From the IMG/VR virus record IMGVR_UViG_3300046387_000250, positions 1-35,112 of that record: a stretch of DNA of 35,112 bases. The stretch is one strand, 5' to 3'. A program made the translations under genes and the position numbers. Below the pieces are notes generated by a model, which made no database searches, was not told where the DNA came from, and saw only the letters and a list, made by a program, of their open reading frames with translations. Positions 3,762 to 16,890 of the stretch are shown here, piece after piece; positions within the stretch are counted from its first letter, which is position 1; every line of letters begins with the position of its first letter. This stretch comes from a virus.

Positions 3762-4399
3762 TCGTCCATGACGACATCAAGCAAGGCTCGGAAGCGTGGG
3801 AGCAGATCAGGCTCGGGAGGGCTACGGCTTCACAGGCTAGCAATATCCTGACTCCTACCGGCAAGCTATCAACCAGTCGTATTAAATACGCTCGGAAGCT
3901 AGCGCGAGAATGCCGTGTGAGCGATCCTATGGTGTTTGCTGGGAACAAGTTCACTGACTGGGGTAACGACCATGAGAACAAGGCTAGGGAGCTGTTTGAG
4001 TCGATGATGGGCTACCAAGTCACCGAGGTTGGGTTTGTTACTCGCAACGACAAGATTATCGGATGCTCGCCGGACGGCTTAATCATGGATGAAAATGGGA
4101 ACTATGACATGGGCTTGGAGATAAAATGTCCACAAGTAGATAAGCATACTGAGTATCTCATGGAGGCAGTGTTACCAAAGGAATACAAGCTTCAAGTCCA
4201 TTGGAGCATGGCCGTCACCGGCATTAAGACATGGTGGTTTATGAGCTATTTCCCTGAGACCAATCCTCTCATCATTAAGGTTCAAGCTGACGAGTTCACT
4301 GATCTTGTCTCACGCGCACAAGATGATTTTATTCCAGAATATAAAGAGGTAGCTGAGCAGGTCAAGGAGGCTTTATTTGGAAAGGTGGTAATTCGATGA
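3758..4399 (+). CDS. Phage 5'-3' exonuclease, YqaJ/lambda-Exo family
   Basis: A 213-residue PD-(D/E)XK nuclease. It shows the family N-terminus (QGSEAWEQIRLGRATAS, with the SxxxxIL pattern), WGNDHENKARELFE with Glu73, SPDGL with Asp106, and EIKCP with Glu121 and Lys123 as the catalytic set. It should digest one strand of duplex DNA from 5' ends and pass the 3' single strand to Bet. It has a strong ribosome site (CAGGAGG about 7 nt before the ATG) within the Bet gene end. The length is normal for the family. A TGTCCACAAGT string at 4127-4137 recurs in the proposed origin. Confidence 0.92.
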   Translation: MIVHDDIKQGSEAWEQIRLGRATASQASNILTPTGKLSTSRIKYARKLARECRVSDPMVFAGNKFTDWGNDHENKARELFESMMGYQVTEVGFVTRNDKIIGCSPDGLIMDENGNYDMGLEIKCPQVDKHTEYLMEAVLPKEYKLQVHWSMAVTGIKTWWFMSYFPETNPLIIKVQADEFTDLVSRAQDDFIPEYKEVAEQVKEALFGKVVIR

Positions 4400-8258: not shown

Positions 8259-8280
8259 ATACTAATCAGAAGAGAGAGAC

Positions 8281-8841
8281 ATGACTCAATTGCACCTAAA
8301 GACTCACGATTGGTTTGCTTTGCGGCCCATTCAAGCGCAGACACTGGAAGAGGCCCGAGATCAATTTGTGGAGCTTCTTGACGAAGGCAGTGAATGCCCG
8401 TGTTGCGGTCGATTCACTAAACGATATAAGCGTAAGTTAAACTGCGGGATGGCTTGGATGCTGATTCGCATTTTTAAGAAATGTCGTCACTCTGGATCTA
8501 GGGTTCTACACGTTGCCGATTCTTTTTTAGATGAAAAGAAAAACGCCGTGGCGCAGGAGTATTCCAAATTACGTTTTTGGGGATTGCTTTTACCGGTTGA
8601 ATCTGACGACCCTAAAATTCAGAGAGAGCAGACTGGATCGGGGTTATGGAGATTGACTGATGAAGGAATTGCTTTTGTCACAGGTCAAATAACTGTTCCT
8701 AAACACGTTTTTTTAGTGAATGGAAAATGTGAGGGGTTTAGCGGTGACAGTGTTACCATAAAGCAATGTCTTGGAAGTAAATTCAATTACGATGAGTTGA
8801 TGGACCCTTTGATTTTAAAGAGATCTGACAACAATAAGTAA
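8281..8841 (+). CDS. Conserved phage protein with CPCC zinc motif and C-terminal winged helix
   Basis: A 186-residue protein. The N-terminal part holds CPCCGRFTKRYKRKLN (about residues 39-54) followed by GMAWMLIRIF. The C-terminal part has KLRFWGLLLP, GLWRLTDEGIAFVTG and TVPKHVFLVNG, a winged-helix-like block. I recognise this as a family seen in many tailed phages, without known function. The zinc knuckle plus winged helix suggests a nucleic-acid-binding regulator. It is the last gene of the main early operon and lies before the late-region leader, so a late-gene regulator is possible but unproven. A GAGAGAG purine stretch precedes the ATG. Confidence 0.8.
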   Translation: MTQLHLKTHDWFALRPIQAQTLEEARDQFVELLDEGSECPCCGRFTKRYKRKLNCGMAWMLIRIFKKCRHSGSRVLHVADSFLDEKKNAVAQEYSKLRFWGLLLPVESDDPKIQREQTGSGLWRLTDEGIAFVTGQITVPKHVFLVNGKCEGFSGDSVTIKQCLGSKFNYDELMDPLILKRSDNNK

Positions 8842-8880
8842 CACTCAGAAATAAAAAACTAAAAAAGTTTAAAATACTTG

Positions 8881-8909
8881 TTGACTTTGTTTTCTAGGGG
8901 TGTCAGTAT
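8881..8909 (+). promoter_or_regulatory. Candidate promoter before a small unknown gene
   Basis: TTGACT (8881-8886) is followed by 17 nt and CAGTAT (8904-8909). The predicted start falls at about 8916, almost on the ATG at 8919, and no Shine-Dalgarno site is present. This may be a leaderless message. The -10 is only a moderate match. Confidence 0.35.
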
Positions 8910-8918
8910 CCCCCCGAC

Positions 8919-9161
8919 ATGACTAAGAAAACACTACCAATTGAAGTTGCTTTTATCGAACTAGCTAACCTAGAGAAGAATTTGGGTTACGCCAATCTCT
9001 GGGATAAAGTTTGTTATCATCCTGAGACAAAATTGTGCTGGGTTACCCACAAGACTCAAAAGGAGACAATATTGTATCTAGACGCTGATAAATATGGGCC
9101 AATCGTTGAGACACTTAACGAGACAGGAGATCTTGACGAGCATCTTTCAGTATCACTGTAA
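8919..9161 (+). CDS. Hypothetical protein
   Basis: An 80-residue acidic protein with no recognised family, membrane segment or metal motif. It sits apart from the early operon after a 77-nt gap that contains a TTGACT promoter-like box. No ribosome site precedes the ATG; the five bases CCCCC are directly upstream. The separate promoter suggests it is expressed on its own schedule. Function unknown. Confidence 0.6.
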   Translation: MTKKTLPIEVAFIELANLEKNLGYANLWDKVCYHPETKLCWVTHKTQKETILYLDADKYGPIVETLNETGDLDEHLSVSL

Positions 9162-9182
9162 CCTTTAACAGACACATATATT

Positions 9183-9482
9183 ATGAATTACGTTCAACAA
9201 GCCCACAAGCCAGAATGGTATAAGGTCGATAATACGAAATTATACCACGCCGCAACATCAGGCTCATCATCGTTCAATGAATGGTATGAGTTTAATGATA
9301 GAGCGGAAGCAGTCGAGTTTCTTGCGGATCACCTCCCAGATGACAAATTTTGTTGGGTAGGTGGAGAGATTTGGGACATGGAAGACTTAACTTACGATGA
9401 GGTCTCCGAAGGATTTGTTTGCCCAACACACGGGCAACCTGCCGACATCCAGGAAATAATCGAAGCTTCAAGCAAATTTTAA
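9183..9482 (+). CDS. Hypothetical protein
   Basis: A 99-residue acidic protein rich in aromatic residues (several Trp and Tyr), with scattered Cys and His (about residues 57, 80 and 83) that do not form a clear zinc site. It follows the previous small gene by 21 nt and likely shares its transcript. The start has an AT-rich leader without a ribosome site. Not recognised. Confidence 0.6.
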   Translation: MNYVQQAHKPEWYKVDNTKLYHAATSGSSSFNEWYEFNDRAEAVEFLADHLPDDKFCWVGGEIWDMEDLTYDEVSEGFVCPTHGQPADIQEIIEASSKF

Positions 9483-9486
9483 TAAT

Positions 9487-9567
9487 ATGAACATCCAAGA
9501 GATAATCCAATCAGCTATTTTCGTAGCCATTTTAATCCTCATGGCTTGGGCCGGAGGACAACCATAA
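9487..9567 (+). CDS. 26-residue single-span membrane peptide
   Basis: A tiny frame, 4 nt after the upstream stop, encodes a short polar N-terminus (MNIQEII) and then a hydrophobic helix (about residues 9-21, SAIFVAILILMAW) and a Gly-Gly-Gln-Pro end. The composition is what a membrane peptide would give, and it ends just before the late leader. There is no clear Shine-Dalgarno site. It may be a real small protein or a chance frame. Confidence 0.4.
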   Translation: MNIQEIIQSAIFVAILILMAWAGGQP

Positions 9568-9574
9568 AAACCCC

Positions 9575-9602
9575 TTGACGATATGTGAGAATTAGATACA
9601 AC
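9575..9602 (+). promoter_or_regulatory. Candidate late-region promoter
   Basis: TTGACG (9575-9580) is followed by 16 nt and TACAAC (9597-9602, four of six matches). Transcription would start near 9609, giving an RNA of about 85 nt before the strong terminator at 9657-9693. The promoter-leader-terminator order before the packaging genes resembles the lambda late-control region. Confidence 0.4.
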
Positions 9603-9608
9603 CTTTGC

Positions 9609-9693
9609 AGCAGCAAGCTGCTTTGTGTTTAATTCATATTATTAGTGTGTAACAAGCCGGTCTGAGTATTAAGTTGCTCAGGCCGGTTTTTTT
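9609..9693 (+). ncRNA. Candidate short leader RNA ahead of the terminase genes
   Basis: The stretch between the candidate promoter and the terminator would make an RNA of about 85 nt. It has a small 5' hairpin (AGCAG at 9609-9613 with CTGCT at 9618-9622), an AU-rich middle and the terminator hairpin at the 3' end. It could be an attenuated late leader that continues only when termination is blocked, or a free small RNA. No known RNA family is recognised. Confidence 0.35.
9657..9693 (+). terminator. Strong terminator directly before the terminase genes
   Basis: CCGGTCTGAG (9657-9666) pairs with CTCAGGCCGG (9677-9686), a 10-bp stem with one U-G pair and a 10-nt loop, followed by seven U residues (9687-9693). 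It ends 15 nt before the small terminase ATG. It separates the early region from the late region, so late expression needs read-through or another promoter. Confidence 0.85.
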
Positions 9694-9708
9694 GTTTATA
9701 TTTTTAGC

Positions 9709-10074
9709 ATGGCAGGAGGACGACCGACAAAATACAAACCAGAGTTCTGCGACATTGCTATTGAGTGCGGCAAGCAAGGCATGGGAAAGGCTGAGATCGC
9801 GTCTAAGCTTGGCGTAGTAAGGGAGACGCTATGGGATTGGGGTAACAAAAAGCCTGAGTTTTCTAACGCCTTAAAAAGAGCGTATGAGGAGGGGCTGTCT
9901 TGGTGGGAACGTAAAGGGCGTGAGGCCACGTTTGGAGGGGTTGAAGGATTCAACTCTACCAGCTACATATTTCAGATGAAGAACCGCTTTAAGGAGGATT
10001 GGAGAGACAAGCACGATCACTCCGTAGAGGTCTCAGGAGAGATTGAGATCGTGATCGGAGGAGAGGATGAGTGA
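9709..10074 (+). CDS. terS: Terminase small subunit
   Basis: A 121-residue protein with the typical small-terminase start (MAGGRPTKYKPEF). A helix-turn-helix (about residues 22-50) includes GMGKAEIASKLGVVRETLWDW. A helical oligomerisation region and an acidic C-terminus follow. It recognises the phage DNA start site and feeds DNA to the large subunit. It begins right after the terminator and without a clear ribosome site. Its stop overlaps the next start by 8 nt. The position immediately upstream of the large terminase supports the call. Confidence 0.88.
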   Translation: MAGGRPTKYKPEFCDIAIECGKQGMGKAEIASKLGVVRETLWDWGNKKPEFSNALKRAYEEGLSWWERKGREATFGGVEGFNSTSYIFQMKNRFKEDWRDKHDHSVEVSGEIEIVIGGEDE

Positions 10075-15003: not shown

Positions 15004-15042
15004 CAAATTTCTAGGTGGTCTCTCTCTTCCCATCTAGCACCG

Positions 15043-15082
15043 AGCCTCCTCCTCTTAGTCATGTCAGAGGGGGAGGCTTTTT
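15043..15082 (+). terminator. Strong terminator after the scaffold gene
   Basis: AGCCTCCTCCTC (15043-15054) pairs with GAGGGGGAGGCT (15067-15078), a 12-bp stem with one U-G pair and a 12-nt loop. Four more U residues follow the final stem U (15079-15082). It closes the portal-scaffold unit ahead of the capsid gene. Confidence 0.9.
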
Positions 15083-15084
15083 GT

Positions 15085-15113
15085 TTGACTAAGTTGATAT
15101 TTTAGCTTAGAAG
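15085..15113 (+). promoter_or_regulatory. Candidate promoter for the major capsid gene
   Basis: TTGACT (15085-15090) is followed by exactly 17 nt and TAGAAG (15108-15113, four of six matches). It begins 3 nt after the upstream U-tract, so a new transcript would start near 15120 and carry a leader of about 168 nt. Confidence 0.5.
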
Positions 15114-16208: not shown

Positions 16209-16229
16209 TCCATAGCAACAACCAACAAG

Positions 16230-16268
16230 GGTCCGTCTGTCTTTCGGGGCGGGCGGGCCTTTCCTTTT
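16230..16268 (+). terminator. Strong terminator between capsid and tail genes
   Basis: GGTCCGTCTGTC (16230-16241) pairs fully with GGCGGGCGGGCC (16248-16259), 12 bp with four U-G pairs, around the loop TTTCGG. A U-rich tract follows (16260-16268). It ends right at the ATG of the next gene (16270). Confidence 0.88.
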
Positions 16269-16269
16269 T

Positions 16270-16890
16270 ATGAGCAAGATCATTACCGACATCGACATCG
16301 CCAACCAAGCGCTTGGCTATTTGGGAGAGCAGACAATTGCAACAATGTCTGAAAACACCAAGGAGGCACGGCAGGTCTCGCTCCACTTTGACCAGACGCT
16401 CCGTGAGATCATGGAGAAACACAGGTGGTCAGTAGGCCGGAAAAGAACTAGAATGACGCTATCCGGCGCAACACCAGATTTCGGGTGGTCTTACGCTCAC
16501 ATTATCCCAGAAGACTGCCTGAGAGTCTTGGATTTGTTTGAGCTTTCAGAAGAGACACCCACACCAAGTCCAGTTCCTATTCGCAAGTTTGAGAAGGAGC
16601 CTGGCCTTATCCTTAGTAACATTAAGCATTGCGGATTAGTCTACATCAAAGAGGTAATCTCATCAGATCTGTCACCACTTCTTGTTAAGGCTCTAGCAAT
16701 CAAGCTGGCATCAAAGCTAGCAATTCCCCTCGGTGAGTCCAGACTGGCCGGCGATCTATCTAATATGGCCGACAATGCCATCAAAGACGCATGGCTGAGC
16801 GACGCAAGACAGTCACGATCAGGAGAAAACTCTGACTTCCTCCAAAGATCCGAAGAAAACAACGCCGAAAGCGGAAGATACAATGCCTGA
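16270..16890 (+). CDS. Tail tubular protein A-like (T7 gp11-like)
   Basis: A 206-residue protein with the N-terminal pattern of this family: DIDIANQALGYLGEQTIATM and EARQVSLHFDQTLREIMEKHRW (about residues 7-55), followed by the YAHIIPEDCLRVLDLF segment. It forms the ring that joins the portal to the tail. The ATG lies immediately after a terminator hairpin and has no ribosome site, so its translation may need read-through and unfolding of the hairpin. It overlaps the tubular protein B gene by 8 nt. Confidence 0.9.
   Translation: MSKIITDIDIANQALGYLGEQTIATMSENTKEARQVSLHFDQTLREIMEKHRWSVGRKRTRMTLSGATPDFGWSYAHIIPEDCLRVLDLFELSEETPTPSPVPIRKFEKEPGLILSNIKHCGLVYIKEVISSDLSPLLVKALAIKLASKLAIPLGESRLAGDLSNMADNAIKDAWLSDARQSRSGENSDFLQRSEENNAESGRYNA

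Follow-up and report, generated by a model that had tools for sequence, protein, structure and literature searches.

The window analysed here is the whole stretch of DNA, 35,112 nt, covering positions 1 to 35,112 of the IMG/VR virus record IMGVR_UViG_3300046387_000250. Directly upstream of terS, the small terminase gene and the first of the late genes, it carries a compact unit: a promoter-like TTGACG-16-TACAAC pair, a predicted 85-nt RNA and an intrinsic terminator, whose last T is 15 nt from the terS ATG (Table 1). The first-pass annotation had proposed a promoter, a short RNA and a terminator at this place, and the coordinates it gave were right. Absent from that annotation was a perfect palindrome at the predicted start of transcription, which may be either a DNA operator or a 5' RNA hairpin, alternatives that are indistinguishable here. 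Its centre reads TT, AA or TC, and the AA of the window exactly inverts the usual TT. The spacer holds a conserved block, GTGAGAATT, a candidate site for an RNA polymerase-loading protein.

Table 1. Features of the promoter-terminator unit and other features of the window. Identity is the mean pairwise identity over 21 distinct sequences.
Feature	Position	Strand	Remarks
Product of 42 aa, ribbon-helix-helix by reading	2110		candidate partner, 6/6 relatives
HTH_39 protein	2912		candidate partner, 6/6 relatives
Weak winged HTH, 100 aa	4396		candidate partner, 6/6 relatives
DnaA-type HTH, 89 aa	6341-6610		PF08299, E 1.6e-21; little beyond DNA-binding domain; candidate partner, 6/6 relatives
Cysteine-rich protein	7651		candidate partner, 6/6 relatives
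Accessory-gene hotspot, SSB to leader	8259-9570		
186-residue CPCC/winged-helix protein	8281-8841	+	phrog_2693, function unknown; accessory gene
Near-leaderless promoter cassette TTGACT ... GTGTCAGTATCCCCCCGACATG	8881-8921		before gene 8919
26-aa hydrophobic peptide MNIQEIIQSAIFVAVLILMAWAGGQP	9487-9567		just 5' of promoter; 7/7 relatives
-35 element TTGACG	9575-9580	+	identity 1.000; identical in 21/21 distinct sequences
Spacer, 16 nt	9581-9596	+	identity 0.878; variation mostly in first four bases
Spacer block GTGAGAATT	9585-9593	+	about -24 to -16; in both copies in tandem relatives
-10 element TACAAC	9597-9602	+	identity 0.970; weak (final C, not T)
Palindrome AGCAGC-AA-GCTGCT	9609-9622	+	identity 0.941; predicted +1 to +14
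Predicted 85-nt RNA	9609-9693	+	start and end predicted from sequence only
AT-rich linker	9623-9653	+	identity 0.830; several length variants, conserved TATTAGTGTGTA core
Intrinsic terminator	9654-9693	+	identity 0.943; stem 9654-9689, seven T 9687-9693
Putative terS promoter TTGCTC-17-TATATT	9674-9679, 9697-9702	+	6 nt to ATG; overlaps terminator
terS (small terminase)	9709-10074	+	phrog_309, E 1.7e-29
Strong terminator, then TTGACT	15042-15090		before capsid gene
Strong terminator	16227-16270		8 nt 5' of first tail gene

Judged by consensus, the promoter does not exceed chance expectation: a scan of the window returned three sites, compared with 4.1 in shuffled sequences, and did not list TTGACG-16-TACAAC because its -10 element lacks the final T. 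Promoters of the Bacteroidota type have the form TTG ... TAnnTTTG; this reading was dropped, as the TTTG at 9604-9607 is not conserved. The terminator does exceed it. Segment 9605-9710 folds with a z-score of -5.2 (0 of 200 shuffles were equally stable), and a stricter scan found three strong terminators on the plus strand, where 40 shuffles averaged 0.075. The pairing of a promoter with a following terminator, a pattern picked after the site had been seen, occurred once on the plus strand, never on the minus strand and in 0 of 40 shuffles. No second copy of the element was found in the window.

Relatives were sought among 80 IMG/VR loci retrieved with TerS (phrog_309). The whole unit lies directly 5' of terS in 28 of these (L002-L028 and L032) and is absent from the other 52. 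An exact search for TTGACG-N4-GTGAGAATT marks 25 of the 28, with one mismatch each in L010, L020 and L021, and the -10 element reads TAAAAC in L016, L022 and L032. The conservation set comprised 27 of the 28 unit loci together with the window, giving 21 distinct sequences; L032, in which terS is cut, was omitted. Reference identities to be set against those of Table 1 were 0.637 for the upstream flank, 0.638 for four-fold degenerate sites of terS and 0.722 for those of terL (17 records), and phage pairs whose TerS proteins are only 79% alike on average still have 88% of the unit in common. Since the unit precedes terS in 28 of 80 loci and is conserved far above the four-fold sites of terS, the observation that it is real was confirmed and strengthened, and conservation of this strength suggests a switch for the late genes. 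A consensus structure computed from 21 aligned sequences (20 distinct) consists of a predicted 5' hairpin and the terminator, with no broken pair. All five pairs of the palindrome hairpin are intact in 20 of 20 distinct rows, and in the terminator 100% of cells are paired, with both partners of one pair substituted in 2 of 20 distinct rows; this covariation is real but thin.

Pattern searches of IMG/VR gave a consistent distribution. The promoter pattern matched 28 stretches, 25 of them on contigs of the unit-bearing family; the off-family matches lay within a gene of another phage (L116) or in leaderless sequence (L121 and L132). The terminator-loop pattern matched 29 loci, of which 27 belonged to the same family and two (L175 and L176) were unrelated sequence, and all 26 loci with the palindrome-plus-linker pattern were contigs of the family. 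The parts of the unit travel together, always before terS. In twelve leader-bearing records, the only matches were to the element itself, to its palindrome on the reverse strand and, for G009 and G011, to the tandem promoter. In three relatives (L005, L010 and L019) the upstream gene ends inside the promoter.

Two promoter-RNA-terminator units stand in series before terS in three distinct relatives (L015 and L016, which are identical here, L022 and L032). The second of the pair is of the usual type. In the first, the promoter TTGACG-N4-GTGAGAATT-N3-TA is followed by an unrelated RNA of about 50 nt that may fold into a terminator bearing a TTCG loop, though this fold beats shuffled sequences only moderately (z -1.9 and -2.6). 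Promoter and spacer block are common to both units, and RNA and terminator differ, which suggests that the promoter DNA is what does the work. When the first tandem unit was searched for with a relaxed pattern, 10 matches came up: the four tandem contigs already described, and six that showed no such unit.

The phages that bear the unit form a marine group. One GTDB contig from an Opitutia metagenome-assembled genome (PBSV01000053.1) carries a unit-family terS with its leader; the contig probably comes from a phage that was binned along with its host, and is no more than a hint of an Opitutia host. The nearest annotated phages by TerL, which include phages of Pelagibacter, Rhodoferax and Microcystis, are less than 40% identical. 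Between SSB and the leader, the window and its relatives show a hotspot of frequent gene replacement with methyltransferase-like, HNH-like (by reading) and other accessory genes, and close variants of the near-leaderless cassette before gene 8919 precede different accessory genes in relatives.

The choice of a partner protein was examined across the same relatives. The first-pass annotation had seen no obvious Q homologue, and this held: neither PF06530 nor PF03589 had a match at E <= 1 in any of eight records. Its suggestion of the 186-residue CPCC/winged-helix protein as a candidate regulator did not survive comparison, the gene being rare in relatives that bear the unit. Among 22 rows reaching SSB (21 loci and the window) it is present only in the window and L028, with a cut copy in L024, and whole-record searches of 12 other leader-bearing records, some of them fragments, found it in none. 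Since the unit is kept without this gene, the protein cannot be the general partner and was rejected in that role. Its structural model is a predicted winged helix (pLDDT 73) for which Foldseek matches had E >= 0.27 and the best VIA match, at Z 6.6, pointed to generic winged helices; Q is not among the structural matches listed, which is not evidence of absence. Searches of PDB sequences with the 186-aa alignment and with the 100-aa protein 4396 returned nothing below E 0.04. Relatives of phrog_2693 in annotated phages are hypothetical proteins from 228 records, 221 of them Mycobacterium phages, and phrog_2693 genes (CPCC plus winged helix) sometimes adjoin RecE or HNH genes. Small putative DNA-binding proteins of the early region are kept in all six relatives in which that region is present (G007 has no early region). 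Those at 2110, 2912, 4396, 6341 and 7651 are candidates, none of them tied to the site by evidence; a single-sequence model of the winged HTH protein at 4396 had a pLDDT of 38 and was useless.

The leading, if unproven, reading of the unit is promoter-anchored antitermination, to which we give a probability of about 0.4; the regulatory idea behind the unit is plausible. Host RNA polymerase would initiate at 9609 and, by default, be halted by the terminator once 85 nt had been made. At a later stage of infection, a protein encoded in the phage's core early region would bind GTGAGAATT between the -35 and -10 elements and join the polymerase. The polymerase would then run through the terminator and transcribe terS together with the genes for packaging and the head, late RNA being the read-through product. 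The spacer motif has a single exact site in the window, as expected of a factor with one target. Further downstream, a strong terminator ends 8 nt before tail gene 16270 and leaves no room for a promoter between them, which suggests that the late polymerase must pass terminators anyway; read-through seems needed before this gene, and partial read-through would suffice. Against promoter-anchored antitermination, reading of the unit revealed neither a direct repeat of the phage 21 QBE kind (TGAGCA type) nor a clear -10-like pause site within the first 15 bases of the RNA, AGCAGCAAGCTGCTT, and all relatives examined have a promoter-like TATNNT ending 6-7 nt short of the terS ATG. An ordinary activator or repressor could use the spacer block just as well.

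The TATNNT site leads to a close rival, a separate terS promoter, which we consider possible and somewhat doubtful. Here the upstream promoter would make an independent short RNA, the terminator would also shield the late genes from early read-through, and terS would have its own promoter overlapping the terminator, with a leaderless mRNA from 9709 or an adjacent base. The first-pass annotation had named a strong promoter between 9693 and 9709, driving all late RNA, as one finding that would speak against its reading; a separate terS promoter has some support. The arrangement TTGCTC-17/18-TATATT or TATTCT-6/7-ATG is kept in 20 of 20 relatives examined (20 of the 28, the rest being close copies), and among 41 gene starts checked terS is the only one with TATNNT and a TTG at promoter spacing. 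The tail nevertheless falls into essentially two sequence versions, TATATT and TATTCT, which leaves few independent events behind the conservation of TATNNT; TATTCT is weak as a -10 element, and the proposed -35 element matches the consensus at only three of six positions and sits in the loop and stem of the terminator. A pattern of the TTGCTC/TATNNT type occurs in the whole window twice on the plus strand and once on the minus strand. Near-leaderless starts may occur in this phage, as the promoter of gene 8919 ends about 10 nt before its ATG, and the capsid gene is likewise preceded by a terminator and then TTGACT; terS has no Shine-Dalgarno sequence, which is unremarkable, as about half of those 41 starts have none.

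Loci without the unit offer a further view of the separate promoter. Of these 52, 48 were examined (the other four begin inside terS), representing 35 distinct upstream regions. A terminator upstream of terS was detected by script in eight of the 35 regions and by eye in two more (L034 and L048). Five of these more distant relatives, picked by eye (L031, L036, L046, L048 and L051), have a -10-like site, a hairpin RNA, a terminator, a second -10-like site and then terS, an order that makes a promoter after the terminator plausible in the window too. About 180 bases before terS, these five loci carry unrelated sequence with a conserved GTTGG hairpin arm. What the separate promoter leaves unexplained is the strict keeping of the upstream promoter and its spacer. 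The two promoters may both serve, at different times. If the two units are indeed separate, the locus would hold a conserved phage short RNA beside a promoter overlapping a terminator, a more ordinary outcome.

Two RNA-centred explanations are much less probable. In the first, which is improbable, the 85-nt RNA, with its 5' hairpin and 3' terminator, would act in trans as a regulator, late control lying elsewhere. In its favour, the predicted hairpin and terminator have no broken pair, and the StxS sRNA of Stx phages likewise arises between a late promoter and its terminator (PMC7873438). Against it, the linker shows lower conservation than promoter and hairpins and has several length variants, and the first unit of the tandem relatives encodes an unrelated RNA. 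Pairing of the linker with 43 phage gene starts was no better than that of 20 shuffled linkers; the best value was -15.9 kcal/mol (gene 9183), and the ten best of the 20 shuffled linkers all reached -17.4 kcal/mol or lower. Such a role could also be combined with antitermination. Still more remote is an attenuator, in which the RNA itself, or a ligand, a ribosome or a put-like cis effect, would decide between termination and read-through with no DNA-anchored protein. The conserved hairpins and linker core would fit it, but no Rfam family matched in the window, the consensus fold contains no antiterminator stem to compete with its two elements, the 5' hairpin and the terminator, and relatives with 1-nt indels or no GTG do not keep the short GTG frame of the linker. 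A leader peptide in the linker was dropped for the same broken frame.

Returning to promoter-anchored antitermination, a stronger claim is that marine Verrucomicrobiota (Opitutia) phages possess a separate, so far undescribed antitermination system, with a new GTGAGAATT element between the -35 and -10 elements, an unrelated small early antiterminator, a terminator touching the terminase gene and, in some relatives, tandem units; this we hold to be unlikely on present evidence. Literature searches found no report of this promoter-terminator element, and one directed at late-gene antitermination in marine phages of Verrucomicrobiota returned no papers. If promoter-anchored antitermination holds, it would extend a late switch of the Q, AlpA and GafZ style to widespread uncultured marine phages, with a new protein, and to a bacterial phylum for which our few searches found no described late phage control. 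Tandem units and the overlapping terS promoter make the idea directly testable with a small reporter.

The comparison with known systems is one of layout. Q (PMC6606751), AlpA (PMC7969949) and GafZ (PMC11150451) bind elements named QBE, ABE and ZBE, which lie between the -35 and -10 elements, and let polymerase pass a downstream terminator. The likeness of the window to them is a resemblance of layout, not membership, because the Q families tested gave no match and reading showed no clear pause element. As the first-pass annotation had claimed, the order of parts is that of Q-type late control: as in the lambdoid phages (late promoter, QBE and tR'; structure of the phage 21 Q, PMC6606751), a late promoter is followed by a terminator before the late genes, and a conserved block lies between -35 and -10. 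The window differs in having no match to PF06530 or PF03589, no visible direct-repeat QBE and no clear sigma-dependent pause site, in an RNA of only 85 nt, and in terS following directly after the terminator as the first gene. StxS of the Stx phages, encoded between the late promoter and tR', is a short terminated RNA from a corresponding place (PMC7873438), and the predicted RNA of the window resembles it in this respect. The five more distant relatives, whose TerS is 54-60% identical, share a -10-like site, a short hairpin RNA, a terminator and terS, and differ in unrelated sequences, a clearer -10 element (TATAAT or TATGAT) and a 5' UTR that separates the terminator from terS. Reading of the window's unit found neither the AlpA motif (GGGACGN5GGTA) nor the GafZ palindrome. 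The likeness to AlpA and GafZ lies in the arrangement: in both (PMC7969949, PMC11150451) an element lies between -35 and -10, where the window has its conserved block with putative binding; for AlpA of Pseudomonas aeruginosa the first gene directly follows an intrinsic terminator, as in the window, with two terminators predicted before PA0807; and GafZ of Caulobacter has one target promoter, as the spacer motif has one exact site in the window.
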